Shown here: one piece after another, positions 19,163 to 61,074 of the stretch
How the letters are laid out: every line of letters begins with the position of its first letter
Position numbering within the stretch: the stretch's first letter is position 1
Assembly: GCF_037975245.1 (NCBI RefSeq)
Contig: NC_092576.1
Span: forward strand, 27,603,611 to 27,667,610
Reading direction: 5' to 3'
Source of the DNA: Apostichopus japonicus
Taxonomy: Eukaryota; Echinodermata; Holothuroidea; Aspidochirotida; Stichopodidae
DNA length: 64,000 bases
Program-made: the position numbers and the translations under genes
The notes under the pieces: model-generated
What the model saw: the letters and a program-made list of their open reading frames with translations, nothing else
What the model was told of the DNA's origin: nothing
The model's database searches: none

Positions 19163-22100
19163 ATGTTACCTTTCCAGCAAATATTGGCAGCCGTATTCGT
19201 GGTGATGATCTCTATGACGTCTGCGTTTGTCGTGAAACAGACAAAGGAAACAACAAGGACGACCACAGGATCAATACCATCCAACCATGTAATGGCTGAA
19301 AGTGTTTCTACGTCCACTGAACTTAAGTACGACAATATCGAGGGAAAGTCCCCATTTTCATCAATTTCCGGGGCATATCAAGAAGGATATGATAGAAAAC
19401 TGGTAGACCAGTTGCTACTAGCGAACAGTATACCTGGTAAGCAGGGTGAAATGTTCAACGAAGACAATCAAATGGTGTTATCTGAAGGCCTGAAACTCGT
19501 CGATAAAGCCACCAGTGTCCTACAAGAGTATCGTGATATCAAGAAAAGGTCTACAATATGCCAGAATCCAACAGATCGGGATCTTGAGAAACAGCTATTG
19601 ATAGCTAAAATATTTCAGACAATGGACGTTGCAGGGACATGGGAAGGTTTAAAATACGATGTTAATGCAGATAATTACGTACCAACGAATCCAACAACTA
19701 ATATGGCCTTAAATAGAAGAACAGCCTGTCCATGGATGTATGACTCAGATGAAAATGAAGACAGGTAAGACTGACAAACTGCTAGTCCCATTTTCGCATT
19801 GCGTCTTTTCTTTACACTCGCTTCTAGCGAGTTGTTAGAAGTTGGTACACAACAAAATCAGATGAAAGCCCCCAACTTATTGATTGTAACATCCTGTAGA
19901 TATTTGGTAGTTGCCTACTATACGTAATACGTTGCAAGATGATAATATACAGCAGTAAAACATACATCACAGTCCCGTAACTGTGACGCTATCAGGGTTT
20001 ATTCGATTTGAAATTTAAATAAATATCTTTCCTTTTATAATCGTGCTGTTGTCAAATTTGCTCGAAATATTGGAAACTCTGCTCAATTATAGTGTGACAT
20101 TTAGTGAGTTCAGTTTCACCATTATATTTCCGTCGCTGAATAAAATATTCAAACACGACAAATTTAACGTAAACACACATTTTAAACCATTTTCCAAATG
20201 ATGGTATATCTAACTATTATAGTAAAGTGCCAGATAATATCATGACAAAGTGTATTTTTTATCCTTCCTTGAAACATGCAGTCAATGTAGCTATGGTCCT
20301 TCGTAATGAGGATGTTGTCCTCACCTGTAGTAAGTAAAATCCAAGTCGGAACATTCTTTATACAGAATAAACATCTACATGATATCACTTGCCTCAGGAG
20401 ATCTTGAATATGTTATCACTATCAAGGTGAATGTATGATACGTCATAAATGACGTCATTAACCTGTTGACATAACAACATTTCAATTACAATACAGAGAA
20501 CAAGCGGTGTCTGATGTGTGAAGTATTTATACATGTTTTTAAAGTTAATCAATGTAAGTCTGTGTAAGAAAGAACTTCTCTTTATAGAAAATTTCAGAAA
20601 TTACGCCTTAATTATAGGGCATACCGTTATATCTATAAAACAGATAACTGGAATTATATGTGAACAAAATACTCCAACACCAACATTTCCCATCATTATA
20701 TAACAAGAAGTATTACAATCAGCATTGCTATTGAACGTAGTTCAAGAAATCCGATTGACAGCAGTACAAGTCACAGATTTGAACTAAATTGTTGAAATAA
20801 GACTAAATATTACCGGCATTAGTCATTTAGATCCGGAGTTAGGAAAAGCACAACTTAATCCTTTTTGGAAACGTTATTTGTTAAAACGGAGGAAATAAAG
20901 ATTGATTCTAATATTGTAATATCGGAAATAGTAGGTAGAATATCGAAGACACCAGAGGTCTCTCAAACGGGAAGGATATTGATGTCAATAACTTCCTTTT
21001 TAGCAATAATTAAACGACCATGGATATGACCTACTTACGTATGGCGTTTGTGTTAAGACGTATGATATGTTGCCATGTTAATAAAACTGATTGGATTTGC
21101 GTTTGTAAGGTGACAGATGCGCAAAATAAGTGATACCTTGGGTTTGTTTAGTGAATGTTCATCTCGAGAAACACATGAATGAGAATTGCTTATAAAATTG
21201 TAATATTGATTAGGAGATAAAAGAAGCCTTTCGGAAAGGGGATAAGTCTGACAAGCGGTAGTAAATCATGTCAATAAAAAAAATTGCGCGTGTACATCAA
21301 TAGCCTACTGTAGGCCTATGTAATGTTGAGACAGTTGGTTGCGATAGGGATCGAAAACGCGGAGTCTGTTTCATTGCAACCAATACATATGCGCAGTTAC
21401 AAGCTATATCCGTTAGCTTGTATCAAAATGTCACGACAGCTATAAAGTAACTTCCTAATGACAGACATGGACTTCTAAAATACTTGGAATTTTGCTCGCG
21501 CATGCGTCCGAAAGATATTTTGGTTCGACGTATCTATGAGCACTAAGACGAGATTCCATTCCTTTTTCCTCCCATGGCCATGGTTGTGTGATTATTCACT
21601 ACACAATAGTTATATCGATTGTCATATGAATCATGAAGGTCGTTATTAAAGTGGAATGCATGATAAGTTTTTATAACATTACGGTCACGGAGGATATCAC
21701 TGCTAAGTGCACTTTAACCACGCGCTAAAAAACTTCATTGATATATTTGATATCCCTAAATCTAACTTGATGACTAATGTGGATAAAATCAGGACTGATA
21801 TCTTTTTGTGTTCATTTTCTACCTTTCAGGTATCCTAGAATAATAGCATATGCGAAGTGTAAATGTACAAAATGTGTACACCATGAAGTACATAATTGCC
21901 GACAACTTACGGTTGATGAAGTGGTACTAATGAAAGACGGAACATGCGATGAGGGGAATTATTTTAAGTAAGTATGACTCTTACGTCCACACAAAATCAA
22001 GGGTAATAAGAAAATGTATTAAACGATCATAGGTTATTTGTAAGGAACGCCAGTCAAACACGTTACACATATAAAATACATATTTTATAAAAGCGTATCA

Positions 22101-25015: not shown

Positions 25016-27215
25016 ATTTATTTCGGCAATTGAAGAGGATGTAAAAACACAGACCTCTGCCCCAGACTTCCGCGACAATCTCAACAAAACTGAGAGACAG
25101 GCTATCCATGAACTCCGGAAGCGCGATGACATTTTCATCAAGCCAGCCGACAAGGGTTCTGCAATTGTCGCTATGGGCAAAAAAATTCTACAAAGAGGCA
25201 GCCAACAGACTACTCGGCAACCCCCAACACTACAAACTCCTGGATTCTGATCCTACTCAAGAAATTACTCAAAATGTGAAAAGAGTCATCCAAACGATAG
25301 TCTCTAACGGTTCCATTGACCGCAAATTTGGCCAAAACCTCCTTGAAAACGACTCAAAACCTGGTCGCTTTTATTTTTTGCCTAAAATTCACAAAGAAGG
25401 CAATCCCTGGAGGCCCATAATATCGGGTAATGGTACAGTGACTGAAATTTTTTTCAAAATTCGTGGATCTTCTCATCCAACCTCTTGTTTCGACCCTACT
25501 GTCCTATGTGCAGGACACTACGGATTTCATCCGGAAAATTGGGGAAATAAAAAATCTTCCCTATCAACTCTGTTAGTTACCTTGGATGTGTCTTCGTTAT
25601 ACACAAATATCCCTAACGAAGAAGGCATTTCGGCCTGCACAAAAGCATTCAAACCGAAACGTGGCAAAACCCCCACGAAGAAAGAATTGACCGAATTGAT
25701 GCAACTTATCTTGACCAGCAATAATCTGGTATTTGGCAACAAACACTACCTCCAAATTCATGGCACCGCAATGGGTACCAAAATGACACCGTCTTTTGCC
25801 AACATCTTTATGGGAAACCTCGAGAAAGAATTTCTATCTCGACAAAACTTGAAACCACACACGTGGTTACGTTTCATTGACGATATCTTTATGATATTGA
25901 CCCATGGTGAGGCAAATCGAAAACACTTCATTGATGATATAAACTCGTTTCATCACACTATCAAATTTACTGCTGATTTTTCTGGACATGGCGTTCACTT
26001 CCTGGACACCACCGTGACCCTGTTAAATGATTCACTCAAAACAGACTTGTTCAATAAACTCACGAACAAGCACAACTACCGCTTACCAAGCAGTTGCCAT
26101 CCACGTCACTGTACCAGAAATATTCCGTACAGTCAAGCATTGCGCATTCGACGCATTTGCTCCTCTGAAGTCGATTTTGATTCACGCACTAAAGAACTGT
26201 CACAACACCTCCTAAACAGACAGTATTTTCGGGGTACTATTGAAAATGCCATCAAAAAGGCTAAAGGCAAACCCCGTACCGAAACATTGACGTACAAAAC
26301 TTGTCAAATCAGTTCCAAAAGGGTACCATTGGTTACTGAATTCCACCCTGGTCTCCCACCACTGGCTAATATCATTCAGAAGAATTTTCACCTACTTCAA
26401 GGCACCGAACGACTGAAATAAGTTTTCCCAGAATTACCTGTCATCGCTTTTAAAAAAAACCCAGCAACCTACGGATATCTTAGTTCGGGCATCCTTTCGG
26501 GATGAGACCCCATAAGGGGAAAGCAAAACAGAAACTACAGGATCATCGCCCTGTACACAAAATTGCAAAACGTGCTTCCTTGTCGATTCGACCGGGGCCT
26601 TTCAGAGCAACCAAACCAAACACACGTTCCAAATTCGGCACAAAATTAACTGCCGATCCAAAAATGTAATTTACCTCATCTACTGCAATATTTGTAACTT
26701 ACAATACATTGGAGAGTCAAAAAACACTCTTAGAATGAGAATGACACAACATAGATCTGCGATCAAAACAAAAAAGATCAACCAACCTGTTTCAAATCAC
26801 TTCAATCTTCAAAATCATTTAATTGAGAATTTGCGTGTTATTGCCATTGACCAGAACGATTTTTGGACAGATAAATCTAGAAAGGAAAAGAAAATTTTGG
26901 GAACTAAACCTTAAGACCACGGCACCATTCGGTTTAAACATCACAAACGATTTGCTGTCCCAGATAAACCAAAACAATTCCTTTGCAATTACGACGGAAT
27001 CGGATTAAAATAATCCCACGCGCATTAAAATAATCCAAATTTCTAAAACTTCTGCTCAATTCAGCAGAAATCAGTAAGTCGCTTTGCCTTTACAACCATG
27101 CCGTCAATCTTCTCTATAAAATAGTTTCAATTCCTGCTACTCCTTGTCACTTTCGGTGATCATGCACTGAAGAAGAGCTAGTTTTGCTCGAAAGCTCTGC
27201 AAAAACCAAACATTG
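25016..27215 (+). mobile_element. Penelope-like element (RT + GIY-YIG), frameshifted
   Basis: Readable in order. KTERQAIHELRKRDDIFIKP then ADKGSAIV lies at about 25078-25170. KFYKEAANRLL, FYFLPKIHKEGNPWRP and IISGNGTVTE follow in the 25108-26421 frame, then LVTLDVSSLYTNIP, MGTKMTPSFAN and FIDDIFMIL (catalytic Asp pair), LDTTVTLL and a basic thumb region. After a stop at 26421 the GIY-YIG endonuclease is readable at about 26670-26990: NVIYLIYCNICNLQYIGES and PVSNHFNL. This RT/GIY-YIG order is diagnostic of endonuclease-bearing Penelope-like elements. Frame changes occur at A7 near 25180, at T7 near 25448 with compensation near 25560, and between RT and endonuclease. The whole is a nearly full-length but inactive copy, unless some frameshifts are sequencing errors in homopolymers. 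Confidence 0.9.
27167..27204 (+). ncRNA. Hammerhead-core-like motif at the Penelope 3' end
   Basis: CTGAAGA (27167-27173) is followed by a GAGC...GCTC stem and GAAA (27190-27193), the order of the hammerhead catalytic core (CUGANGA, stem II, GAAA). Penelope-like elements are known to carry hammerhead motifs in their terminal repeats. I could not place convincing stems I and III, and an unpaired A follows CTGAAGA, so this may be a degenerate remnant. Confidence 0.35.
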
Positions 27216-29430: not shown

Positions 29431-32140
29431 AAATTTGTACATAAATATCCCTAGTTGGTACTTGTACAAATCATATAAAGAAGTTCATTAAAGAACACAT
29501 CCGATGACTTTACTGCATTCCCATATGTTGTTAATACATACATATTTTGTAGAAAATTGGATGATGATTTAGAAGAAGATAAAAAAACTTATCACCGTGC
29601 ATCTTTCATATCACACCTGTTAGAGTTCACCGTTGGTACTAAATATTTGAAACTTCAATTCTTGTTCACTCGTAATCTATACTAAACTAAGTTAGCCTTA
29701 ACTTAAACTTAAAAAATATAAAGAAAATTTCCCTGATTGTCCTTCTACAAGCTGCCTTTTCTTTTCTGATCATATCATGATTGCTTGAGGTCAAACCACA
29801 AAATTCAAATTTTCGATTATGACATAATTATCTGAATAAGTAAATTCGATTTACTGTTCAATGAGCAAAACCGTGAAGGGTAGCAATGCACATGATGAAT
29901 TGACACCCGTTTTTTTTTGTAATGAAAGTGCTTTATTTGGAAACATTTTATTTCTGTATTATGGACGTTATCTTATTTTTCCTTTCATTTCCCCCAAAGT
30001 TGAAAGTCCAAACCGCCACACTTGGTCTCTAACTTTGAACATTACAATAACAACAATAAAAATGCGGAATCATTAAATCAATGCATTTAAATTTTCTTGT
30101 CTTGTCAAAAGAATCAGATATTAAACGATAATAATAAAAGATACATACAAAGCGTTAATATCTGGTAATAGCCATACCCTTTACAATCACCAAGACTGAA
30201 ATGTTCAGCAGTCTTCAATATTAAAACAAAGTCCAATTCACTTTTTAGCTCACATGGGTGACATGATTGAAACGTAGAGTTAGGTTATGGTGGCATAAGC
30301 AAAAATGTCTGGAAGTTCACAAGCGTTCAGTCTGTCCCACCGCACAATGGATTCACTGGGTACATCTTTGTTTCTATTACTTGAAAAAGTTTCAAGACTA
30401 CCCACCTTACTTGCCTTTTTATTGTTAAAGCAAGAAAAAATGTGTAAATGTGGAGATATTTAATGATTATTTTCGGACTTTGATCACAAATGACCTTTGA
30501 CTCCCTTAGATATAAATTATTATTGTACTCTAGAAAAGAGAATTTCATATTGGGTATCAAGTTTAAGCGAGCTTTACTTTTGCCATTATCGTATTTACAA
30601 TGTTTCAGAACTTGACACTTGTTAAGAGAAAAGGTTAGTCCTTCCTGTGAGTTGCGATATGATAAAGAAGCATAATGAGCTTAATGTACAGTTAAGTATT
30701 CTCATTCAATGTGCTAAACTTATGAGGTTTCTTGGTTGGAGATTTGATGAAAGTAGCGGAAATTTTTTGCAACGAATAAACATTGTCCAGCCGTTGAGAT
30801 AAATTAAAGCTATTTGAGAATGTGACTTTCGGCATATCTTACTTATATGAAAAGGTGTTGCGATTTATACCCCTGTACTCCATAAATAACATTAAAAGTT
30901 TTAGAATGTTGAGAAAATGTAGAGTGTGAAAGCAAGATACTATGCCCCAAGTTCATATCTAAGTGAAGAAACAATCCTATTATCAAATTGTTGTTGTAAA
31001 GGATACATACCCGGGTGGAATTTCACAAGTTATTTTTGGCTACTCGTTCTTCCCCTGAAAAGAACCGAATTTCAACACCAAGGAATTCCCGGCTAATATA
31101 ACACATTCAGTTTGCTTACAAAGGCTTTATAGTCCTATTCAATACAACGAATTAACTGAACCGTTAACTGTACCTGCCTTCAAGTTCACGGCTTTATTGT
31201 TGAACTCGATGCTGTGCATTCATTGACAATGCAACTTTTCGCTTCAATTGAGTCTGTAGTCGTTGGCGTATTTCAGTATTGTACGACACTCCCGTCTGGG
31301 CGTGTATTACTTCTCAGGGGCATTAATAACCATGTAATGTACAAGTTATCGTTCTCGAGCTGATATACCCTTTTACACAGTATTTATACTGTTGTTCTCG
31401 CAAACAAGTCTTATCAGAAGTAAAGTGTAACATTGGCAATTCCGAGAACTTTCAGGTTTCTTAAAATTTTCGAAAACTCAATTAATACAATTTAATAATA
31501 CAATTAATACAACATAATAATACAATTAATACAATATAGATATATAAACAGACAAACAGACATACATATAGATAGATAGTTAACTACAGCATAGCTATTT
31601 CTCTCTATATATGTTGCTGTTGAGTAAGTCTTCGAAACATGTATAACATTAACAAAATTTATGATAATATATACGATAACTAAGGGTATGTATCAAGTCT
31701 TCCAAAGTCGGCGTCTTTTATTGTGGTGCTTAAGGAACATATAATAATGTTTTCAGTTCCCAAAAAAATTCAGAAAAGGTTCCATGCATTCGAGAGATAT
31801 GTTAATCAGTATAGTCGTGAACCACCATGGTATTGAACAAGGTATCGTGTGGTTACCATAGTAAATAAAACACTGCCGTGACCGTTTTGCTCTGTACGCT
31901 ACGATGGCATGGGTGGACGTACGATCTCAGATACACTGGACACTAGTTAACGTAAAAGTGCCACATAGCTCTCACCTTCAAAGACACTAATTCACAGTTC
32001 CGCAAACGGGTCCCTATCTCGTAATCCTTAGGTCTCTTGGTTAGGGTATTTACATTGAAACTTTTTTAATCCCTTTGGCAACGTTAACTTCAGTCTGCTT
32101 TTATGTAACAAAACAGGAATATCACATATGGCGACTGCCC
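29431..32140. other. Intergenic, no recognised gene
   Basis: Includes the second block of similarity (30540-30900) to 45600-45820 and AATAC-type short repeats near 31480-31540. A candidate poly-A signal for the minus-strand death-domain gene (AATAAA as TTTATT at 31717-31722) lies 426 bp past its stop. Confidence 0.45.
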
Positions 32141-32147
32141 ACCTCAC

Positions 32148-32722
32148 TCAAGCTTCGCTATATGGATTTTCAATTGTTAACACGTCACGCATATCTTTTA
32201 ACAGCAAAGTCGATTCTTCTAGATGGAGCTTCAACAATGCATCAACGAGTACCTTCAACGAAACAAAATGAGTGAAACCATATGAAAGCAAATGAACCAA
32301 TGTTACTTACTTTCAGATTCATTTTAAAAGGAACGACATTGAACATCATATTTAACGAAATAATTCTGTAAAGTGTTTACGCATGGGAAAGGGGAATAAG
32401 GAGGATTTTGTGACGTCTAGTGTTTAAATAGGTTTGTGTAGCCATTGCCTCCATTTGATTTGTTATATTATTGTAGAAGTTCCATACGTAATACGAGTAG
32501 AATTCTGTAATCTCTTGAACTTACCTCGACAGTTGCTCCTCTTCCACTTCTCTTATGCCAAAGATCCAACAGGTTTGTCGTTTTATCCATAACGCTGCCG
32601 GGCCTCTCTTCGATCTCAAGCCGCAAGTTTTTTGGAACTTGTAGAAGTTTGCCAAACTCATCCCGTTTTTCATCCACCAAGTGCTCTGCTATGCAGTGGT
32701 GTAAGGCTGGCATTGGACTGTA
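32148..32722 (-). CDS. Two exons encoding the death domain
   Basis: Exon 32722-32525 (acceptor TTTTACAG, donor GAG|GTAAGT) encodes 66 residues from YSPMPALHHC to GRGATVE. Exon 32252-32148 encodes VLVDALLKLHLEE to NPYSEA and a TGA. Joined, they match the family pattern throughout: a helical LaxxL start, the LLDLWHKRSG segment with the invariant Trp, then ATVExLxxAL, with the break at a natural phase-0 intron. The acceptor of the last exon (TTTCGTTGAAG) has a weak pyrimidine tract, but the domain continues across it exactly. Confidence 0.85.
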
Positions 32723-35700
32723 CTGTAAAAGTGGTTAAGAATTGATGTTCTACTTTTAGTCTCCCACTTTTAATAGACACAAACAGTGCCAAGTGAACTG
32801 ATCTGTGATATTAGTAAGTCGTTTGTAGATTGCAAGGAGTCACACAGTACTTAATTTGACAGCCTAACGATGCTACAGCTTATATTATCCAACACCTTTT
32901 GTTGGCTATCTGGAGAATTTTCTTTTGCACCAATTCTTCATCCCGAGATTGAGTCACCTAACCTGTCAACTTATTTTTTCCAAAAACTGTAGTTTCCTGT
33001 TTTGGGTGACAAGGTTGGTTCGAACTAAGTGACAGAATCAACACAATCAAATGTCACAAATATTGCATACACAAGCAATAAGAATAATTTAGATCAATTG
33101 GTCAGAAGGATCTGGCTCGTCTGGCTCGTGAAGTTTAAGAACTTACACCAATTGTATTCTGTAGCGTATTACCTATACACGGCTTCACATTAACAAAAAT
33201 ACCAAGGAATATTTTTAAGGTCCGTAGCAATTAGTTATAGTGAGACTAAGAATATGTTCGTACATACTCACGTGTTCATATCGAGCGATTTGGGATTGCT
33301 GATAAAAACAATACACAAACAGATTTAATTAATGAAATTGCTCTCAAGAATTATATAAACTGACGGGGCTTTAGTCAATGACATGAATGATGTAATCTAA
33401 CTGAAGGTTCAGCATGTTTTAAAAAGTAGTTGGTACTTGTACTGTTTTAAGTAGCTACTTTTCTGCTATTACTTCACGCACTGACAAAGTGGCTCTCGAA
33501 AAGACGATATTGTTATACTGTGATATCTCACAAACTATACTTTGCATTGTGTTAGATTAACTGAGATATTGAGCGATATTTAGACAAATGATGAAATTTG
33601 GTTTACACAAACAATGGTTTCATGTATCAAGTATGAATACCAGGTAATTAAAATGAAGAATGTAGTTAGGTTCGTTCCCCGTCAATCCTGGTGTCAGATT
33701 AACTGAAATATTAAGCGATATGAAGACAAATGATGAAACACAGTTTGGTTTAAACACACTATGGTTTCATGAAGCAAGTATGAATACCAGGTCATTTAAA
33801 TCAAGAAGGTGGTTAGGTTTGTTTCCCACGTTAATGTAATGGTGTCAGATTAACTGAGATACTAAGCGATATTTAGACATATGCTCACATGGGTTAAACA
33901 AACATGTTAATTTGTCGAGCAAAGGTTTAATTACGGTCAAATCATGAGAAACTCATTAAATATATTTATTTCTTAATTAAATTACCACAAAATCTCGAGA
34001 ATTTCTTCAGAAGAAGCGAAACGTACCCATTAAGTAGGTAAAGATAAACAGTTACTGGGTTATGTCTTTCACCCCCACTCCCACATCATGTATTAAAATC
34101 AGGAATATTGGTACGGCTGTGCGAAAACTATTACACTTAACAATTAAATTTAGAGAGGACATCCTCGTAATATCCGTATTCCATGAGTATATCTTACCAG
34201 ACTTTCGTCTCCTCCATCTTCGGCATTCTCACTAGGTTGATGGTCAACTTCTTCCACTAACTGTGTGTGTAAATTTATTATGATGTGTGGAACAGTGAGG
34301 AATAGCATTTCAATCAATGAGCGACAGTCATCTACCAGTTAGTTTTATAAACGGTGGCATCTCTGGGTTATCTAAAATACTGTCCATCCTATTTGTTTTC
34401 AAGTCGGCTTGATCATATACGAAATACATCAGTATAATAAATGCATTGTAACGAATTCTTCAAAGTACATTCAATTTGGTTTTCTGTATAGAAACGTGAA
34501 GTGAAAAGGAGATTTATTTTAATAACTCCCAGATATTAACATTATGATGATCCATTTATTTATGAAGAGTAAATGCAGTATTTTTCGTTGCTTAACAAAA
34601 ATTGTCGATATGATACACCAAACATTTAACTAACTACTGCTCGAAATATTTTTTAAACAAAGAATGAATGTTTTTTCCGCAACAAAATCTAATGAGATGT
34701 CATAGTTTGATATACTTGAAAAGCTCTTTTGTAAATTACCAACAACATGCATTCCAACATATAGCAGGCCTATCCTTATTTGTAACTGAGATTTATTGAA
34801 AAGGGAAAACGATTAGCAGAAATTCCCTACCTCGCTGTAGGCGCCTTCTGTTAAATGGATTGGTTCATACGAAGTGCTCCTATGGGTTGGGACAGGTCTT
34901 TTATTCTCCTTACAATAAGAAGAGATATTATTGAAAGTTATCAACATTGTACTGTTCATGTACTTGTTTGTTAAGTTTGTTCTCACAGCAACTTATTTTA
35001 TATAATTAAACCAAAAAAATCATTTGACGAGCAAAGAAAAAATATTATGATGTGTGGAACATCGAGGAATAGCAATTCAATCAATGAGCGACAGTCATCC
35101 AGCAATAAATTAGTACCCATCAAATGGGTCAAGACAGACCGGTACTGTGTTACCACACAAAACACACACACCCATATTATGATATTCCAATTATTTATTA
35201 AGAATTTATGCAGTCTTTTCCGTTGCTTTTGAGAAATCGTCGATACGATACACCAAACATTTAACTAACTACTGCTCGAAATATTTTTTTAAAAACAATG
35301 AATTTTTCTTTCCGCGACAAAATCTAATGAGATGTCATAGTCATAAAGCTCTTTTGTAAATTACTAACAACATGCATTCCAACATATAGCCTATCCTAAT
35401 TTGTAACTGACATTAATTGAAAACGGAAAACGATTAGCAGAAATTCCCTACCTCGCTGTAGGCGCCTTCTGTTAAATGGATTGGTTCATACGAAGTGCTC
35501 CTTTGGGCTGGGACAGGTCTTTCATTCTGCTTACACTAAGAAGAGATATTATTGAAAGTTATCAACATTTGTACTGTTCTTATATGTTTCTTAAGTATGT
35601 TCTAACAGCATCTTATTTTATATGATAAATCAAAAAAGGTAAAATTATTATGATATGTGGAACATCGAGGAATAGCATTTCAATCAATCAGCGACAGTCA

Positions 35701-36271
35701 TCCAGCAATAAATTAGTACCCATCAAATGGGTCAAGACAGACCGGTAATGTGTTTCCACACACAACACACACACACCCACATTATGATATTCCAATTATT
35801 TTTTAAGAATTAATGCAGTCTTTTCGGTTGCTTTTGAGAAAACCGTCGATACGATACACCAAACATTAACTAACTACTGCTCGAAATATTTTTTAAACAG
35901 AAAAAGAATTTTTCTTTCCGCGACAAAATCTAATGAGATGTCATAATTTGATATATTTGAATATTAATTTGAGCAACACCAGGAAGATTTGTTACATTTG
36001 TCACAAAGTGATACAAAAAGGTCTATTGTAAATTACCACCAACATGCATTCCAACATATAGCAGGCCTATCCTTATTTGTAACTGAGATTTATTGAAAAG
36101 GGAAAACGATTAGCAGAAATTCCCTACCTCGCTGTAGGCGCCTTCTGTGAAATGGATTTGTTCATTCGAAGTGCTCCTTTGGGTTGGGACAGGTCTTTCA
36201 TTCTCCTTAAAATAAGAAGAGATATTAATGAAAGTTATCAACATTGTACTGTTCATATACTTGTTTTTTAA

Positions 36272-36309
<38 letters not shown>

Positions 36310-36417
36310 GTCGGTCGGTCGGTCGGTCGGTCGGTCGGTCGGTCGGTCGGTCGGTCGGTCGGTCGGTCGGTCGGTCGGTCGGTCGGTCGGTCGGTCGGTC
36401 GGTCGGTCGGTCGGTCG

Positions 36418-36468
<51 letters not shown>

Positions 36469-39400
36469 CTTGAACCCGGAAAGAAAAGCCATATCCCTAT
36501 TGAGACCATGACAGTGTGAACGTACTCTAAGGATCAATTCGACTTCCTTCAAGTTTCTTTTATTATGGTCAGACAAATTACCCAGGATTATGGCAAACTT
36601 AAGACAGTCGATACTGTGTTGTGGATGATTAAAATGTTCAGCCACTGGAAAACTGGTTTTGTTGAGTCTGATTGTGCTTTTGTGATTATAGAAACGTCGG
36701 AACATAGAGATGTAACCGTACCCACCGGCGCTATTGTTATATACCAATTGGCAGGCAGTCCTGGAGTCGGTGAAGTGTGAAATTCGCCTTAAGGTTGAAG
36801 GCGATTTTCACACAGGTTGAAGGCGATTTTCTGGGGTTTATCTAGTGCTGCCTTGTTTGGGCGCTGGTTTGTCTCTGCTGGTCGGTGGGCGTATTTACTT
36901 TTTTGGCTCGCTTGACTTGAGTTTTGTTTGTCAGAGTGGGCTGGTTGCAGGTAGGACTGTTTGGCTGTGACGTTTTGGATCCCGTAGGGCGGGTCACGTA
37001 AAAGCACATTGCGCTTCAAGTTGAAGGCGATTAATAGCCGTTTATATGGGGCTGCCTTTTTTGTACGCTCGTGTGCTGGGGAGGGGTGTTTTGTTTCGCT
37101 GCGTGCTGGTCGCCCTTTGTGGTCTTTTCAATGTTCCAGTGGGTGGCTGGGGGGTTTGTCTCTGCTGGTCGGTGGGGGTATTTACTATTTTTTAGCTCTC
37201 TTGACTTGAGTTTTGTTTGTCAGAGTGGGCTGGTCTGGTAGTGCCGTTTTGCCGTGACGTTTAGATTCCCGCAGGGCGTGTCACGTAGAAAGTACATCGC
37301 GCGTTGAAGGTGTACATGTTCAGGAAGTCACACAGCTTCACGGATATCCATTGTACATAAATATACATTAGCGTCCGGGATTCACAGGTAAGGCTGTCCG
37401 TCAACGGGATTGAGAAAATGCGACGCACCCATTATATGGTATTAATATACTTTGTATATACTATCTATATACTATGTTTATACTTGGATAGAAGATATAG
37501 TGTCGTATATAGTACTGTCGATATATTATGGGGAAAAAAGCCTTCAATCCCTGGAATTTATCTAACTGGATTTTGCCCGTTTTCCTTTTTTTCCATAAAT
37601 ACCGGTAGTATTTCGTAATTAAGGTCGGCCCAAGGGTCTTCAAACCATGGGTGCAGAATTACTATAAAAAAGTATGTCTATGCGGCAATATTTATACATG
37701 ACCTAACGACGAAATGTTCTGAAAATAAGTACACGTTCTCCGAATATAGAAATCACATATGAAGTGCTCTTGCCAGTTATAATATGCAATCTTCATGAAT
37801 CATGAGAGAAAATAACCAAAACAAGAGATTATAGACACACTTTAAGGGCAGGAGGTTTATATATGCAACACCTCATGTCGATAGATACTTAAAGCAGACG
37901 CGTAGCCAAGGGGAGGGGGCGACGGGGCAGTCACCCCCCTCCCCCTTGAGCATATTTGTTGGTATGTTTTATTATACCGCTAGTAATTTCAAAAGAGAAA
38001 ATGCTAATTAGATGCAACTTACAAGGCCTGGGAAGTGCCATTTCCAGCGATCTGGGAGGCATTTTCAGCCAAAATTCCCACTAACTCATGGCGGCGCTAC
38101 GCTTATAGATAGTTTGCAATGCCGTATCTACGGCTCTGATATTTTGCCTGCAGTTTCGCCCTTCCCTTGGCAAATTCCTCGCTACGCGCCTGACTTAAAG
38201 TACAGTTACATTTCTTACATCACAGTGGCATGCGCAAAGGGAAGGAGGTGGGGCATTACATCTTCAGTCGGGGGTTAAAAGTTTAAAATTAGAACGCTGC
38301 TCCTGTCCCATGAGGCACTTCTACTGAGCATCAAGCCGCTAGCTAAATCAACCGGTGAGATCTAGAATCCCCCTCCACACCACACAATCTGTTGCATGCA
38401 AAGAAGCAACATACCAGCCCTTTAACCGTTCCCATAGGCCTGTCATTTCTGTAATCATCGTTTCCTTGGTTGTCATCCTCTTCCCATGCAACGGAATATC
38501 CATCGTCTTCGCTCCATTCGTAGTAATATTTGTCTTCTGTCTGTGGTTATAGAAATAGTAAATTACTGGTGTAGATCGTGTAAGTAATACGTCTGTATTT
38601 TCAAACCAAAAATATATTTTAATTACATAGAATTATTGCAAGTTAGGTAAGGGGGAATGGTTCACTCGATATATATTATAAACGATTTGTTCTCCATTCA
38701 AATTGCGAGACACGTTTATAAACATGTAGCCATGTTTCTAGAGAGAGTTGTGAATAGATGATATTATATCTTGTCGGAAGCCAGAAAAATTGTCCTCGAT
38801 GTATAGTCGATGATGGAGCAGATTTTGTTTTCAAATGCTTTAGTTTTTTACTTAGTCTTCTTGTTGATGTATCCGCGAAGTGTTTGCTAAGCGGTCAGTG
38901 ATATTCTATGTGTATCACAATGCAACTGTTTGGTAGAAATATGATTTCCTAAATGCACACATTCTTTAAATGTAACGAAATTAAACATTAAACATTTGTG
39001 AACAGTGCCATTATAACAACATTGACTTTTTTGCTGCCAGAATTACACTGATATGCATAATTCATTCATAGAAAGAGAAAAATGCTGTCAGGAAGTTGTT
39101 TGGACGGAAGTATATGAAGAAAGTAAATAGCACTAATGTTCAGCAACGAACTTGAGCCACGGGAATATCCCTTTTCAAAAAAAGAGAACCTGCCGATTTG
39201 CTAAAACAGGAAAGGGATGCTTGCCATGTACCAAATTAGTTCGACATATACAGTACCGTTAATGTAAATATACATAATAATCGGAGCAAAAATATAATCG
39301 TTCAATGCACTTTTCCAACGGTGGAAGATCGCGGTAAAGTTCCTCTTCGTAGTCATTCTTCAAACAATATATATTCTAGAACAGCTTTTTGTCTTCATGG

Positions 39401-41470
39401 AAAGTATAAAGTTTTCTCGATGTGCCCTCCACATATTCTTCTTTAACTATCTTAGTCTGTATCACTAATAATGTGTACTTTACTTCAAAATTTCATATTA
39501 TTTTAGCGCTTTGGATTATACCGTGTCTGTTACTTATAGGACATAAACAAGACACGATAACAGACGCTTGTAGGCAGACAACGGAAATATCCGAAAACTG
39601 TAGGTTACGTAACTGGCAGAGGCAGAGTATTTTCAACAATCCGAAAAGTGATTTGATTACTTCTAACTATGAAATTTTGCCTCTGTGATATGAACATTCA
39701 CCATACAAGAAAATGAACGGAAAGATTAGTAACGATGAGACGACTTAAACAACGCTATCAATAAGATCTAATTAGACTTAATACATATTCATGTATTATT
39801 TTTTGATTACTAATTCCAATCCAAATCATTTCAACAATTTCAAACACGTCCCTTTAAAAATGTGAGAATGAATTATTAACCTACCGTTGCATGTCCTTCC
39901 GTTTCGCGATATGAGTCCAGAAGAACAGCTTGGCCATCCATTCCTTTCCATCCGAACAACTCTCCGGTTGATTTGAACAACTTGCGGGTATAATTATTAT
40001 GGACGGATTTCATCCTGATCACCATTCCGTCTCTGAGAACTAATCGAGGCTTTGTAAGATATCTCACAACTTTAGATGGGAAAACCTCTACGTTGTTTCT
40101 TTGTGTAATCCCCACAACATGATGTCCATGGATGTTTGCCAAGATGAGAATTATGTCACCTTTATGTAATGTTACCTTTTCTTTCGGTTCAGACCAGTCT
40201 GTCTTAGCTACCGCATACCTGAGTGTCATTCCAGCATCTTCAAGACCTTTGTGGTCACATAAATCAAACATAGCGCTAGGACATTTTTTCTGAAATGGCA
40301 CATCTTTGAGTACAGCTACAGCCCCGTCTTTTTGCCTGAAAACGACAAAAACTCGTTTGCTTTTCAGTAAAATAGTTAACTTGTCTTTGACTTTAATTTG
40401 AAGTACTTCTCTCTCGTCGTTTACACACACAGCTTTACTTAAATACTCCGACCCTAAAGAGAGAGAGAGAGAGGTAGAGAAAGAGGTGGAGGTGGAGACA
40501 GAAACGAGCTCCTGAAATTAAAGGTTTCATGTCGGTTTGCTTTGCAAACAGTCAAGAGATAACAGTTTATTTATGATGAAATGTGATAGGAACAAAGACA
40601 ACATAATTGAATGTGTATGCTTATGATATGATTTAATGGACATAATATTTTCTACTTGACGATGTCAATGGATACTATTTGTTCCCTCATTTGTATTAAA
40701 ATTTCATTCTGATCTACTAGAGATCTGAAGAGACTTACACTAGGTATATGTCTCGTCTGATTGTCCTCAGTTAGTGATAACATCATAGCTGTAGGATTGA
40801 TAACATGTGCCGGAATCTACAACTCAATAGATCATTTAGTTGAATTATATTGCGTAAAATCAGCACTTAGCTCACTTGGCTGAAACTTTGGTGTAATCAC
40901 AATATAATTAGAAAGTTAACATCATGTCGACACAGCAGCGTAAGCTAGAAGTATTGTTGAGCCGAAAATACCAGCAAAAAAGGACTTGACACTGAAAATA
41001 TTATGGACGATGCAGGAGAAATAACTAATCAAAAAAAGAACTAACACTAAACACACGTGTATGCAATCTAGATAGACCAAATCAATTAGTTGTGGGATTG
41101 GAGAACACTGAAAACGCTCTCACTGTGTTTAAGCTAAACTGTGAATTGAACCTTCACTGGTCAGGAAATAAAATACTGTAAGAAAGAGAGCCAAAGATGG
41201 GGTTTAACACAAGGTATAAGGAGATACAAAAGGACGTACACAAAAAGACATACAGTTTGTTCATTAGATAAAGAGTGTAAAACAGGAAAATGGGACAGAA
41301 AGAAACAAAATTCCAGCTAATTAAAAACCTTAAATTCTCATGGAATAATATTTCCCATCTACTTGCAGGTTATTATGATGTACAATCTTATGATACTCCT
41401 TACTTGACCATGGGATTTGTCTTGCGTTCTTCGATTTTGTGGAACTGATATTACTTCCTCCGGCTGCCAT
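32148..41470 (-). CDS. Death-domain adaptor-like protein, 10 exons
   Basis: Minus-strand exons: 41470-41404, 40453-39885, 38540-38415, 36202-36128, 35526-35452, 34905-34831, 34260-34198, 33298-33272, 32722-32525, 32252-32148. They total 1380 nt, all junctions are AG/GT and in phase, and encode 459 residues. Residues 1-22 are MAAGGSNISSTKSKNARQIP plus WS; 23-212 form a beta-rich region (DKLTILLKSKRVFVVF; HKGDIILILANIHGHHVVGI; VEVFPSKVVRYL) resembling CABIT or SH3-like barrels (tentative). Residues 213-254 are acidic with YYY and DYRND, 255-329 are three 25-residue repeats with SYEPIHL/GAYSE, and 330-359 are linkers. Residues 360-459 are a death domain: CIAEHLVDEKRDEFGKLLQV, TTNLLDLWHKRSGRGATVE and VLVDALLKLHLEE. 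No signal peptide or membrane segment, so it is cytosolic. Death domains bind other death domains in TLR/IL-1R, TNF and apoptosis signalling. The join between exon 3 and the repeats is supported by phase only. Confidence 0.7.
33549..33905. repeat. ~147-bp tandem repeat in an intron of the death-domain gene
   Basis: AGATTAACTGAGATATT(G)AGCGATAT begins at about 33554, 33696 and 33846, with the units (including ATGGTTTCATG and AGTATGAATACCAGGT) diverged by substitutions and small indels. About 2.3 copies, non-coding. Confidence 0.8.
34275..36230 (-). repeat. Triplicated intron-exon unit encoding 25-residue repeats
   Basis: Three direct units of about 600-760 bp (landmark GTGTGGAAC...GAGGAATAGCA at about 34285, 35048 and 35656). 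Each carries one 75-nt phase-0 exon: 34831-34905, 35452-35526 and 36128-36202. Protein consensus is N-(E/K)-RPVP followed by RSTSYEPIHL and TEGAYSE. In the 5'-most copy (36202-36128) the sequence is STSNEQIHF, so its first Tyr is lost. Splice sites are kept in all three copies (acceptors AGGAG/AGCAG, donor GAG|GTAGGG). Exon duplication lengthened a tyrosine-motif region of the protein. Confidence 0.8.
36274..36470. repeat. Compound (TA)n-(GGTC)n-(TGTC)n-(TATC)n microsatellite
   Basis: TA to about 36304, GGTC units to about 36420, TGTC to about 36456, then TATC. The stepwise change of one base per unit shows the arrays arose from one another. Frames reading Val-Gly-Arg-Ser repeats are artefacts. 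Confidence 0.95.
36460..36790 (-). mobile_element. Penelope-like GIY-YIG endonuclease remnant
   Basis: The minus-strand frame reads FRRFYNHKSTIRLNKTSFPV, AEHFNHPQHS and later LRVRSHCHGLNRD. This is the C-terminal half of the GIY-YIG domain in Penelope-like elements (R...H+..I......P.A.HFN...H... and the final GLN.D). A short matching stretch (AATTTCACACNTCACCG and CAGGACTGCCTGCCAA) lies in inverse at 63670-63710, so the remnant coincides with the outer end of the large inverted duplication. Confidence 0.65.
36785..37325 (-). repeat. GC-richer element, two partial copies in tandem
   Basis: GTTGAAGGCGATT, GTCTCTGCTGGTCGGTGGG, CTTGACTTGAGTTTTGTTTG and GTCACGTA-type phrases occur once at 36795-37010 and again at 37018-37320. 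The counterpart in the right arm is 61290-61478 plus 62365-62470. Probably a LINE 3' region or non-autonomous derivative; no protein is readable. Confidence 0.5.
37500..37640 (-). pseudogene. Left-arm counterpart of the truncated paralogue's last exon
   Basis: On the minus strand TTTGAAGACCCTTGGGCC is preceded by CTGCACCCATGG, where the right arm has CTGCACCCACAG. The acceptor AG is therefore absent here. The frame would read FEDPWADLNYEILPVFMEKK plus a few residues and stop. A 15-bp segment between two CCAG words (including the TAA) is present here but missing on the right, where the frame runs on. Without an acceptor this exon should be skipped in the left gene, allowing splicing on to the repeat exons. 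Confidence 0.6.
37897..38198. mobile_element. MITE-like element in the left arm
   Basis: Ends GACGCGTAGCCAAGGGG and CGCTACGCGCCTGAC form imperfect terminal inverted repeats around a G/C-rich start and AT-rich body of about 300 bp. The right arm has only a C-rich remnant at about 60645-60690, so it was deleted there. Confidence 0.5.
38415..38540 (-). CDS. Exon 3 (acidic tyrosine-rich), left copy
   Basis: 126 nt, phase 0 at both ends: acceptor ATAACCACAG, donor CTG|GTATGT. Encodes TEDKYYYEWSEDDGYSVAWE then a stretch ending DDYRNDRPMG and TVKGL. The Asp/Glu content and YYY and YRN motifs suggest a phosphorylation segment. The right-arm exon 60442-60567 has the same length and phase, with six replacement differences and one silent one by my count. 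Confidence 0.75.
39885..40453 (-). CDS. Exon 2 (beta-barrel region), left copy
   Basis: 569 nt from the acceptor CTCTCTTTAG to the donor ACG|GTAGGT. It starts by completing an Arg codon with exon 1 (A|GG), then SEYLSKAV. The first half (EVLQIKVKDKLTILL, KRVFVVFRQKDG, VLKDVPFQKKC) follows the strand pattern of CABIT domains. The second (KVTLHKGDIILILANIHGHH, VEVFPSKVVRYL) resembles an SH3-like strand order, with ...FPSKVV as in SH3 ALYDY-type ends. No catalytic residues are visible. Domain name is tentative. Confidence 0.75.
41404..41470 (-). CDS. Exon 1 of the adaptor gene, left copy
   Basis: ATG at 41470-41468 has A at -3 and G at +4 (good Kozak). 67 nt encode MAAGGSNISSTKSKNARQIP and WS, plus one base before the donor (TCAA|GTAAGG). 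The same exon occurs at 52465-52531, 55120-55186 and 57555-57621. Preceding ACGTCAT (a half CRE) is conserved in the copies. Confidence 0.7.
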
Positions 41471-41570
41471 ATTTTCCAGATGACGTTTCACACGAACGAA
41501 TGGCACAGTACTGCAATAATGCTGAAAAGAAGGGAAGCTTTTATCATATGAAGCGAAAAAGTACACAGAC

Positions 41571-43405
41571 TTTGTGACACCCTGTTCTGTTTGTTTTTAG
41601 GAAATAAACGTCGGGTTAGGTTTGGCCATAATATAACCCATATGTGCACAGCAAGTGTACTTTCATTTTATGATGGTCTAATAGTTCTTTTGAATATCAA
41701 GCGTTCCAATGCTTTGTTACCTTCGAAGTTTGTACTGTAGTGAGGTCAAGCTTGAAAGATATGTTGCAATCGGGTTTCTCCCAAACATTTTGCGGTACTG
41801 CAAGGCGGAACTATGATTATAGTACTTATATTGACCCCGTGTGTTTGTGTTGGGTTGCTGCATTACATTACCCCTTATATATTTATTTATTGATAAAAAT
41901 AACGACAGTTACCCTCATTAAAACCACGAAATTTATAAATCACATTACTGATATGTTTTCATTTGTCTAAATGAAAGTAAGAAGAAGAAATATTTCTGAT
42001 TTCTTTATAGGCGTTATTACCTTCCATACAAACACTAAGTAGGTCTATTAAAGTACTTACGTATGGCCGGAATATTTTGTTTGAAACTACACATAATGTT
42101 ACATGCAATACCTATGTAATCCAACAATAATGATAAATAGGGCGAGGAACGAACGAACAAGGAATGCGGGCATTGGTTGACAAGTCATGAATTTAAACTG
42201 AGACATTTCCTTACAACCAGCAATAGTGAACATGACTCCATATTGACAACATACTGAATATTCAGCTCCTGAAAACAAGCGTCTTTCCTCCAAAAGAATT
42301 CTTCCGTTTTTCATTGGTAAAACTGGTAAGAACGTTTTCTGGGTGATGACATGCTGAGAATGCCATATTTTAGTTAGTTATTTGTTCACAGTAACCTTCT
42401 ATTTGTTAACACTTCAAGTGCGGACAGTCAATGGTTTTGTAGGATCTGTATAACGGCGGTGTGGGTGGAGCGTTTGATGTCGAAATGTGTTTTTTTTTTG
42501 GGGGGGGGATTTGTTTTCGCTTACTTGGGGGGTGGGGTCTTTTCAGCTCCTAGTTTCGACAAAGACGTTAACATTTGCCACTGTGCGTAAAGCGCACACT
42601 TCAAAGGGGTGTCTCTATGTTGAGTAATACTCCGGGTTATCCAAGTTACTATTCACCCTGAATCTACTAATTTCATTCAGATAACGCAATTAAACCCAAA
42701 AGCTGGTACTACAGTATCCAGGTTGAGTAAATTGTTAACCAGTCACTGTCCACTAATAAACTGAACAAATGATAAATCAAGGTTGCTGATTTCAACAGTA
42801 CACAGGTGAACAACCCAGACCTTTCTTTTGCAATATATGTTGAACTAAGAATCATCTCAACTGTGAACAGCCCTCGGTCTATACAAGAAAGGCTGCCACC
42901 GCTGAATCTCCGCTTAAGCCAAACCAGGAAAGTAAAAACTAAACGAAAACACTAAGGAAGAACTACCAAACAAAATCTGGAAACGTATTGGGAGTTTGGT
43001 CGCACTAGGCATTGTGCAACGCGAAAATTACGATATCAAAACGTAAAAGATATATGAATCAAATTATGCAGAATCCATCGCCTTTGTCAACTGCTACCTT
43101 TGTAAATCTTTGAAAAGAATAGGTCACTTACCGTGTGTTGCAGAGACATTCTTATATTTTCAGTGAATATAACTACTGTTTCACCCCGTAGCAAGTACAT
43201 TCGTTCAATAAACTCGCAGTACGGTTGTATCTAGAACGCTTAGCCTATCTGGGATTAAGTGTACACTACATTGAAACATTGTTCGAAGGTTGCAGTACGG
43301 TAATCCCTACAACAGAGCACCGTCGTTTTGGTCAACATATTCCAAAAAACTTTAACTTTTATTTAAAGAATAGTGCTTTCTAGTTTATGAGAGATGATCC
43401 ATATG
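41571..43405 (-). promoter_or_regulatory. 5' region of the left gene (homologous to the tandem unit)
   Basis: Aligns in inverse to the 5' parts of the units at 50838-58546. No TATA box stands out. Conserved small frames here (for example 42099-42314, ending FLVRSFLALFIIIVGLHRYC) are disrupted or altered between copies and are not called as genes. Confidence 0.35.
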
Positions 43406-52464: not shown

Positions 52465-52531
52465 ATGGCAGCAGGAGGAAGTCATATCAGTTCCACAAAA
52501 TCGAAGAACGCAAGACAAATCCCGTGGTCAA
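52465..52531 (+). CDS. Alternative first exon, tandem copy 1
   Basis: Intact ATG and donor; encodes MAAGGSHISSTKSKNARQIP and WS, ending TCAA|GTAAGG. It could splice over the downstream copies to the single exon 2 at 58562 in the same phase. Confidence 0.5.
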
Positions 52532-57554: not shown

Positions 57555-60500
57555 ATGGCAGCCGGAGGAAATAATATCAGTTTTACAAAATCGAAGAACG
57601 CAAGACAAATCCCATGGTCAAGTAAGGAGTATCATAAGCTTGTACATCATAATAACCTGCAAGTAGATGGGAAATATTATTCCATGAGAAATTTTGATTT
57701 TTAATTAGCTGGAATTTGTTTTCTTTCTGTTTCTGTCCCATCATCCTGTTTTACACTCTTTAGCTAATGAACAAAATGTATGTCTGTTTGTGTACGTCCT
57801 TTTGTATCTCCTTATACATTGCTTAAACCCCATCTTTGGCTCTCTTTCTCAGTATTTATTTCCTGACCAGTGAATCACAGTTTAGCTAAAACACAGTGAG
57901 AACGTTTTAAGTGTTCCCCAATCTCTCGACCAATTGATTTGGTCTATCTAAATTGCATACAGTGTGTTTAGTGTTAGTTCTTTTTTTGATTAGTTATTTC
58001 TCCTGCATCGTCCATAATATTTTCAGTGTTAAGTCCTTTTTGCTGGTATTTTCGGCTGAATAATACTTCTAGCTTACGCTGCTGTGTCGACATGATATTT
58101 ACTTCCTAATTATATTGTGATTACACCAAAGCTTCCGCCAAGAGAGCTTAGTGTTCTTTTAAAGCTATATCATTGAACGAATCGATGTATTGAGTTGTAT
58201 ATAGATTCCGTCACATGGTAATCACTCCTACCGCTATGATGTTATCACTAACTGAGGAAAATCAGACTAGCCATATACCTAGTGTAAGTCTAATCAGATC
58301 TCTAGCAGATCAAAAGGAAATTTTAGTACAAATGAGGGAAAAAATAGTATCAATTGACATCGTCAAGTGGAAAATATTATGTCAATTAAATCATATCATG
58401 AGCATACGCAATCAATGATGTTGTCTTTGTTCTATCATATTCATAATAAATAAACTGTTATCTTTTCAATGTTTGCAAAGAAAACCTATGTGAAACTTTA
58501 ATTTCAGGAGCTCGTTTCTGTCTCCACCTCCGCCTCTTTCTCTACCTTTCCCTCTCTTTAGGGCCGGAGTATTTAAGTAAAGCCGTGTACGTTAACGACG
58601 AGAGAGAAGTAGTTCAATTTAAAACCAAAGACAAGTTAACAATTTTGCTGAAAAGCAAACGAGTTGTTATCGTTTTTAGGCAAACAGACGGGGCTGCAGC
58701 TGTACTCAAAGATGTGCCGTTTCAGAAAAAATGTCCTAGCGCTATGATTGATTTATGTGACCACAAAGGTCTTGAAGGTGCTGGAATGACACTCAGGTAT
58801 GCGGTAGCTAAGACAGTCTGGTCTGACCCGAAAGAAAAGGTAACAATACATAAAGGTGACATAATTCTCATCTTGGCAGACATCCATGGACATCATGTTG
58901 TGGGGATTACACAGACAAACAACGTAGAGGTTTTCCCATCTAAAGTTGTGAGATATCTTACAAAGCCTCGATTAGTTCTCAGAGCCGGAATGGTGATCAG
59001 GGTGAAATCCGTCCATAATAATTATACCCGCAAGTTGTTCAAATCAACCGGAGAGTTGTTCAGGTGGCAAGGAATGGATGGCCAAACTGTTCTCCTGGAC
59101 TCATATTGCGAAACGGAAGGACATACAAAGGTAGGTGAATAATTCATTTTCACAGTAGAAACGGCACGTGTTTGAAATTGTTGGAATGATTTGGATTGGA
59201 ATTAGTAATCAAACAATAATACTTTTTATATGTATTTAGTCTAATTATATCTTATTGATAGCGTTGTTTTAGTCGTCTTATCGTTACTTGTGTTTCCGTG
59301 CATTTTTTTGTGTGTTGAATGTTAATATCACAGAGGCGAAATTTCATAGTTAGAAGAAATGAAATCACTTTGAGAATTGTTGCAAATACTCTGCCAGTAA
59401 CGTGGTTTAAAGGTTTACGGATATTCCGTTGTCTGCCTACAAGCGTCTGTTACTTGTGTCTAGGTTATGTCATATAACTAACAGACACGTTATAATCCAA
59501 AACTCATATTAAATGTAGAAGTAAAGTTCACATTATTAGTGATACAGACTAAAGTAGTTTAGATGAATATGTAAAGGGCACATGGAGAAAACTTTTTACT
59601 TTCCATGAAGACAAAAAAGCTGTTCTAGAATATATATTGTTTGAAGAATTAATACCAAGAGAAATTTTACCGCGATCTTCCACCGTTGGAAAAGTGCAAT
59701 GAGCGATTATAATTTTGCTTCCATTATTAGAAATATTTACATTGACGGTACTATATATTTCAAACTAATTTGGTACATGACAAGCATCCCTTTCCTGTTT
59801 TACCAAATTGGCAGGTTCTCTTTTTTGAAAAGGGATAATCCCGTGGCTCAAGTTCGTTGCTGAACATTAGTGCTATTTACTTTCTTCATATACTTCCGTC
59901 CAAACAACTTCCTGGCAGCATTTTTCTCTTTCTATGAATGAATTATGCACATCAGTGTAATTCTGGCAGCAAAAAAGTCAATGTTGTTATAATGGCACTG
60001 TTCACAAAATATGTTTTATTGCATTACATTTAAAGGATGTTCGCATTTAGGACTCATATTTGTACAAAACTGTTGCATTGTGATACAAATAGAATATCAC
60101 TGACCGCTTTGCAAACATTTCCAGGATACATCAACAAGAAGACTAAGTAACTAAAGCATTTGAAAACAAGTTCTGCGCTATCATCGACTATACATCGAGG
60201 ACATTTTCTCTGGCTTCCGACAAGATATTATATCATCTATTCACAACTCTCACTAGAAACATGTCTGAATGTTTATAAACTTGAATGGAGAACAAATCGT
60301 TTATGATATATATCGAGTGAACCATTCCCCCTAACCTAACTTGTAATAATTCAATGTAATTAAAATATATTTTTGGTATGAAAATACAGACGTATTACTT
60401 ACACGATCTACACCAGTAATTTACTATTTCTATAACCACAGACAGAAGACGAATATTACTACGCACGGAGCAAAGACGATGGATACTCCGTTGCATGGGA

Positions 60501-61074
60501 AGCGGATGACAACCAAGGAAACGATGATTACAGAAATGACAGGCCTATGGGAACGGTTGAAGGGCTGGTATGTTGCTTCTTTGCATGCAACAGATTGTGT
60601 GGGTATAGAGGGGGATTCTAGATATCACCGGTTTATTTAGCTCAAGGGGGGCGGTTGCCCCCTACACCCCCTCCCCTATCAGTATCAATCGACATGGGGT
60701 GTTGCATATTTTAGTTCAGAAACGTACTGTCCTTAAAGTGTGTCTATAATCGCTGGTTTTGGTTATTTTCTCTCATGATTCATAAACATTGCATATTATA
60801 ACTGGCAAGAGCACTTCACATGTGATTTCTATATTCGGAGAACGTGTACTTATTTTCAGAACATTTCGTCCTTATAAAGGTCATGTATAAATATTGCCGC
60901 ATAGACATACTTTTTATAGCAATTCTGCACCCACAGTTTGAAGATCCTTGGGCCGACCTTAATTACGACATACTATCGGTATTAATAGAGAAAAAAAAAC
61001 ACGGGCAAAATCCAGGGATGCAAGATATATGTCCCGCAAGGCTTTTCCCCCATAAAATATCAACAGTGCTATAA
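57555..61074 (+). CDS. Truncated adaptor paralogue lacking the death domain
   Basis: Exons 57555-57621, 58562-59130, 60442-60567 and 60937-61074 total 900 nt, all in phase, for 299 residues. Splice sites: TCAA|GTAAGG, CTCTTTAG|GG, AAG|GTAGGT, CCACAG|ACA, CTG|GTATGT, CACCCACAG|TTT. Exons 1-3 parallel the left gene: MAAGGNNISFTKSKNARQIP, then the beta-rich CABIT/SH3-like region (tentative), then the acidic segment with YYY and DYRND. The last exon is unique: FEDPWADLNYDILSVLIEKK, then a basic tail to TVL and TAA. No death domain or tyrosine repeat exons follow before 64000. It keeps the putative interaction part but loses the C-terminal effector domain, so a competitor or decoy role is possible (inference). 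It could have up to three alternative promoters. About 25 of 189 exon 2 codons differ by replacement from the left copy and 8-9 by silent change (hand count). Confidence 0.65.
58562..59130 (+). CDS. Exon 2 (beta-barrel region), right copy
   Basis: Same 569-nt length and phase as 39885-40453 on the minus strand. No indels between the two. Differences include S/P, C/Y, D/G, D/V, R/T, D/A, G/R and R/C, while strand cores such as DKLTILLKSKRV and KGDIILILA are unchanged. Confidence 0.75.
60442..60567 (+). CDS. Exon 3 (acidic tyrosine-rich), right copy
   Basis: 126 nt, acceptor ATAACCACAG, donor CTG|GTATGT. Encodes TEDEYYYARSKDDGYSVAWE to TVEGL. Phase 0 on both sides. Confidence 0.75.
60937..61074 (+). 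CDS. Terminal exon specific to the right paralogue
   Basis: Acceptor GCAATTCTGCACCCACAG, then 45 codons and TAA. Contains NYDIL, a Y-x-x-L motif, and a Lys-rich stretch. Relative to the left arm a 15-bp deletion removed an earlier stop, adding about 17 residues. Confidence 0.6.
   Translation, partial: FEDPWADLNYDILSVLIEKKKHGQNPGMQDICPARLFPHKISTVL

Follow-up and report, generated by a model that had tools for sequence, protein, structure and literature searches.

Can one protein carry a signal from a tyrosine kinase to a death-domain assembly? Phosphotyrosine kinase signalling and death-domain assembly are usually joined through chains of separate proteins, and the question is raised by a minus-strand gene, here called A, in a stretch of 64,000 nucleotides from the holothuroid Apostichopus japonicus (assembly GCF_037975245.1, contig NC_092576.1, forward-strand positions 27,603,611 to 27,667,610), which is referred to below as the window. 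The domains and motifs predicted for A and its relatives suggest a small, rapidly diverging adaptor family that would link phosphotyrosine to death domains and whose branch in the window would carry tyrosine motifs where relatives have an SH2 domain, a reading to which we assign a probability of about one half.

The adaptor gene and its relatives

As predicted from the genomic sequence, the exons between positions 32148 and 41470 of the window are one gene. Read on the minus strand, the ten of them form a single open frame of 462 residues followed by a stop codon, with GT-AG borders at all nine introns, of which the first is in phase 1 and the other eight are in phase 0. An initial annotation of this DNA had already recognized ten in-phase exons on this strand, with a microexon of 27 nucleotides (nt) among them, and this architecture stands, with a protein three residues longer than the 459 counted there. 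Exon 1 (41404..41470) provides the start codon and residues 1-22, whereas the microexon, exon 8 (33272..33298), lies towards the other end of the gene. An Rfam scan of 32000-41600 gave no match.

The two last exons, exon 9 (32525..32722) and exon 10 (32148..32252, which includes the stop codon), encode the two parts of a death domain, so that the C-terminal death domain proposed earlier across a splice junction is borne out. Residues 383-448 match the Pfam family PF00531 with E 1.3e-5 and 25.6 bits, above the cut-off of 22.6, and exons 9 and 10 alone do so with E 9e-7 and 29.4 bits. The death domain is the sole Pfam family above cut-off in the A protein, and it was matched in all six family members tested (E <= 10, best 3.5e-11, with exons joined manually across introns).

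A search of the whole genome (671.6 Mb in 35 contigs) with the N-terminal domain encoded by exon 2 gave ten matches, from which two with internal stops (E 0.185 and 0.82) were dropped. The eight remaining loci are A itself; B, an inverted copy that starts in the window and continues past its end; G5 and G7, which also lie head to head, about 0.78 Mb from A on its contig; G8, also on the contig of A, at 24.14 Mb; G9 and G10, on contig 1; and G11, on contig 13. A query with G11, the most divergent member, recovers the same eight loci. At seven of the eight, an exon for the death domain of the family lies downstream in the same orientation, at a distance of 6.5-15.1 kb, and a genome search with the death domain of G8, which gave 27 matches, places these seven loci at the top (E 2.0e-32 to 7.2e-9), the eighth-ranked locus following at E 4.2e-4. 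No relatives were found in viral and prokaryotic collections. Each of the four close copies has an uninterrupted frame between its start and stop codons, which spans 462 residues in A and in B, 409 in G5 and 503 in G7. The models of B, G5 and G7 keep the first exon, the exon order, the splice phases and the 27-nt microexon of A, and their totals of ten, eight and twelve exons differ because the number of repeat exons varies.

SH2 exons and tyrosine motifs

One indication of a link with phosphotyrosine comes from the distant paralogues. Comparison of G8 with G9 reveals two conserved exons between the N-terminal domain and the death domain, whose translations read as SH2. The Pfam family PF00017 matches G9 with E 6.1e-8 and 33.1 bits (cut-off 21), G8 with E 3.8e-4 and 20.9 bits, which is 0.1 below the cut-off, and an exon near G11 with E 8.4e-9 and 35.9 bits, while the SH2 exons of G10 are recognized through tblastn only. 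In G8, G9 and G10, these exons map between those of the N-terminal domain and the death domain, all on one strand, and the SH2 translations carry YLFR or FLVR, which we take to be the FLVR-type arginine motif of SH2 domains. No SH2 was found in the A protein by Pfam, and four SH2 queries against the extended window gave nothing better than E 0.43. A loss of SH2 in the window branch would depend on rooting with G11, whose long branch the tree program marks as unsafe, and therefore only the absence of SH2 is stated here. Elsewhere in the genome, about two dozen other SH2-encoding matches with 34-41% identity to the SH2 of G9 occur on contigs C4, C14, C19, C20 and C9, many of them with the same single internal stop, and perhaps constitute an expanded or mobile family.

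The middle of A is rich in tyrosine, as had been noticed in the initial annotation, with 12 tyrosines among the 155 residues of the linker. Exon 3 (38415..38540) encodes a tyrosine-rich and acidic stretch with a YRN motif, which is also present in B and G5. It is followed by tandem copies of a 78-nt exon that encode a repeat of 26 residues; A and B each have three such copies, G5 has a single one and G7 has three pairs of exons. The copies of A (36128..36205, 35452..35529 and 34831..34908, the last being exon 6) differ pairwise at 4-5 of their 78 bases, and the first tyrosine of the pair is absent from copy 1; a long tetranucleotide and dinucleotide repeat lies immediately upstream of this copy, at about 36268-36463. 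When joined to exon 7 (34198..34260), the last copy gives YEPI-HLTEGA-YSEL, which has the spacing (YEPI-x6-YSEL) of an immunoreceptor tyrosine-based activation motif (ITAM). In this ITAM-like motif, YEPIHLTEGAYSE, residues 1-13 (320-332 of the protein) derive from exon 6 (34831..34869), and the final residue, L333, is the first codon of exon 7 (34258..34260). Copy 2 spliced directly to exon 7 would also give an ITAM-like motif, whereas copy 1 would not. The ITAM pattern, Yxx[IL]-x6-8-Yxx[IL], has one instance in A and three in G7. In sets of 20000 shuffled sequences, those containing it number 128 for the A linker, 15 for the A repeat unit and 91 for the G7 unit.

In the mechanism that we infer from these elements, the product of A would be a soluble adaptor, with a beta-type N-terminal domain whose middle is SH3-like, a central part that varies between members and a death domain at the C-terminus. 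In the window branch, the tandem copies of the 78-nt exon would provide the tyrosine motifs, arranged as ITAM-like pairs in A and G7. A tyrosine kinase would phosphorylate the ITAM-like motif as the input of the system, and SH2 proteins, possibly the sister proteins with SH2 and death domains, would dock on the phosphorylated motif; in the SH2-bearing relatives, the SH2 domain itself would be the input. The gathering of several adaptors would bring their death domains together and nucleate, by oligomerisation, an assembly whose output would be NF-kB signalling, caspase activity or inflammation. A bolder version, which we regard as unlikely, is that the two halves of a phosphotyrosine death switch come from this one family, with A and G7 as ITAM/death-domain scaffolds, G8 and G9 as SH2/death-domain adaptors that dock on them, and their head-to-head neighbours B and G5, poor in tyrosine, as brakes on the system. 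If true, a kinase signal would be converted directly into the assembly of death domains.

The alternative that survives best is an adaptor working without phosphotyrosine, in which the N-terminal domain would sense or bind, the middle would be a flexible and fast-evolving spacer, and the tyrosines would be incidental. Most of the repeat tyrosines are indeed lost in B and G5, and the linker is the fastest part of the protein, the repeat exons showing proportions of synonymous (pS) and nonsynonymous (pN) differences of 0.043 and 0.186, pooled over 45 non-independent pairs, a pattern compatible with either diversifying selection or relaxed constraint. Against such a spacer stand the SH2 exons of three distant paralogues, the rarity of the ITAM-like spacing of A and G7 in the shuffled repeat units, and the tyrosine content of the linker, so that we consider this alternative possible, though somewhat unlikely. 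The connection of tyrosine phosphorylation with the death domain, already suggested in the initial annotation, gains indirect support from the SH2 exons and the ITAM-like spacing, but the loss of most repeat tyrosines in B and G5 speaks against it.

Several other observations weigh against a family of phosphotyrosine adaptors, to which the weak coding constraint described below is to be added. Neither B nor G5 shows the ITAM pattern, G7 has lost the YxN motif, shuffling of the whole A protein yields the ITAM pattern in 152 of 5000 cases, and the pattern was searched for after the tyrosines had already been noticed. The models of G8, G9 and G10 are partial, and the N-terminal domain of G10 contains two TGA codons. 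No death domain was detected in G11, and its SH2 exon, at 13 kb from the N-terminal domain and with E 0.14 for the SH2 query of G9, may belong to another gene; in favour of its membership, the exons of G11 and G8 both start with KLTD just before the SH2. Finally, SH2 exons are frequent in this genome, with 40 matches listed for the SH2 query of G9.

The N-terminal domain

The domain encoded by exon 2 (39885..40453; residues 24-212) is of beta type and about 190 residues long, and homologues are present at the eight loci. Pfam gives nothing for it in the whole A protein and nothing above chance level in seven N-terminal domains of the family. The initial annotation had proposed either a CABIT or an SH3-like domain for this region. 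A CABIT is not supported, as PF12736 matches neither the A protein nor any of the seven domains at E <= 10, while three control CABITs reach 228, 260 and 171 bits against it. These controls have in common one cysteine and the motif LP....G.F, whereas no cysteine occurs among the invariant columns of the seven-sequence alignment. In hhalign, the family domain compared with one and with three CABITs reaches probabilities of 0.7% and 0.5%, a comparison of little power, since a CABIT-to-CABIT control, though in the right region, is itself weak (probability 4.5%, E 0.009). A genome search with the GAREM1 CABIT did not match the family and gave one unrelated match at E 6.35, and a genome profile search with PF12736 found nothing, which is not evidence because the control was detected nowhere either.

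The SH3-like label, on the other hand, fits better, although the signal is weak. Of nine PDB matches that the seven-sequence profile gives at E <= 10, all but one are SH3 domains, partly by our own assignment, and they align over the same stretch. This middle segment of the domain (residues 91-163, 40032..40250) matches 23 PDB chains on its own, of which 20 are SH3, with a best E of 0.014; for most of these chains the SH3 identity is our own assignment, and the many SH3 matches that come from one family (sorbin, vinexin) are therefore not independent. A reversed-profile control matched two chains, neither of them SH3. The Pfam family SH3_2 appears in two of the seven members with a best E of 0.099, the first member scoring 12.3 bits, below the cut-off of 21.8. 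AlphaFold2 with two window sequences gave a mean predicted local distance difference test score of 29.5, and a second run gave 41.1, both too low to show a fold. The profile matches constitute a weak but consistent signal that the middle of the domain is SH3-like. It could not be tied to CABIT, since the GAREM1 CABIT has no match in a PDB search.

A true but very divergent CABIT fused to the death domain would agree with the beta-rich pattern, with a short stretch that aligns with the GAREM1 CABIT in hhalign and with the low power that the positive control reveals for profile comparison. An SH3-like segment would also be compatible with the possible dyad of six-stranded barrels as which the CABIT has been described (PMC3931654). 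However, the absence of the Pfam CABIT from all seven domains, the low hhalign probabilities, the lack of a conserved cysteine and the failure of the GAREM1 CABIT to find the family in the genome make such a fusion quite unlikely.

Copies, constraint and comparable systems

The copy B was found on the plus strand by tblastn of the A protein against the window. Its exons 1 (57555..57621), 2 (58562..59130, with 88.7% amino-acid identity in tblastn) and 3 (60442..60567) lie inside the window, and the later ones beyond its end. Two extra copies of exon 1 with their flanks start at 52465 and 55120 on the plus strand, in tandem blocks upstream of B (95.9% identity over 97 bases), and are possible alternative first exons. 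Both adaptor genes are contained in a large inverted duplication, which pairs about 9.6-43.4 kb with about 50-90 kb (extended coordinates) in blocks of about 80-92% identity. The same region harbours an IL-17-like cytokine gene on the plus strand (19163-19763 and from 21830), whose two in-phase exons match the Pfam family IL17 with E 2.6e-9 and 37.8 bits (cut-off 24). The first of these exons has an inverse copy, 88.5% identical, past the end of the window (82825-82226 in extended coordinates), and therefore the duplication took in the cytokine gene along with the adaptor gene; in the DNA examined around G5, G7, G8, G9, G10 and G11, no such copy was found. A reverse transcriptase frame on the plus strand (25045-26421; RVT_1, E 1.1e-9) presumably belongs to a Penelope-type element, which it resembles.

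A tree of the N-terminal domains joins B with G5 (99/99) and groups the four close copies (98/96), with a poorly supported placement of A and G7 within the group (70/76) and G11 as a long branch. This branching makes it probable that a single older head-to-head pair gave rise to both A/B and G7/G5, and each of these two pairs has an ITAM-like member on one strand and a tyrosine-poor member on the other.

A last question is whether these copies are functional at all. In a decaying family, recent copies would be drifting with little or no function, and weak constraint is apparent in the ratio of nonsynonymous to synonymous divergence (Ka/Ks), which for six close pairs is 0.42-0.89 in exons 1-2 and 0.43-1.28 in exons 9-10. 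Moreover, divergence in the introns is similar to that in the exons (3.9-8.9% for the A-B comparison of four introns), and the two stops in the N-terminal domain of G10 point in the same direction. Nevertheless, the four close copies are all open, with intact splice sites, and the rapid change may equally reflect diversifying selection, since the comparison of repeat exons with their flanks in five related pairs gives p values of 0.008, 0.030, 0.073, 0.16 and 0.38, two of them below 0.05 (uncorrected), all of which makes decay very unlikely in our view. As for two separate genes, at 38.4-41.5 and 32.1-36.2 kb, the A model is predicted from genomic sequence, but the recurrence of the same domain order, with a death-domain exon downstream on the same strand, at seven loci, of which three have about 40% identity, and the compatible phases across the exon 3/4 junction in all four close copies make this so improbable that the single gene of the initial annotation can be retained.

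No description of this adaptor family was found in searches of open-licence papers. With the death domains of ankyrin and FADD, its best plausible PDB relatives by profile (E 0.0018 and 0.028; the helical chains 3mlg and 21gi rank higher and look like chance), A shares this module, and Pfam finds no ankyrin repeat, ZU5 or DED in it. The likeness to ITAM-bearing immune receptors and adaptors is at the level of sequence, and consists of the Yxx[IL]-x6-8-Yxx[IL] spacing. GAREM, like THEMIS, is an adaptor with a CABIT and tyrosines. With such CABIT adaptors (PMC3931654) A shares a beta-rich N-terminal region and a tyrosine-bearing adaptor character, and it differs from them in lacking a CABIT match and the conserved core cysteine and in ending with a death domain.

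Closer parallels combine a death-fold domain with SH2 or SH3. In the main text of a survey of SH2 transcripts from sea-star eggs, the word 'death' is absent (PMC11593052). Invertebrate proteins with Death-like and TRADD-N domains have variable C-termini that include SH2 and SH3, and also form expanded families in marine invertebrates, so that the combination of a death fold with SH2 has a precedent (PMC8195603); their death fold is N-terminal and followed by TRADD-N, whereas the death domain of A is C-terminal and no other Pfam family exceeds its cut-off. The synthetic SH2/PTB-DED chimeric adaptors of Howard et al. 2003, in the terms in which PMC2575513 cites them, likewise join a phosphotyrosine-binding module and a death-fold module in one adaptor. 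Those chimeras are man-made and based on DED, whereas here natural genes carry a death domain, in A with tyrosine motifs and without SH2. A natural SH2 domain or ITAM-like motif in one chain with a death domain would thus be a direct shortcut which, judging from that citation, has so far been built in the laboratory, and a single genome with members bearing SH2, bearing ITAM-like pairs or bearing neither offers a ready comparison of the roles of these modules.

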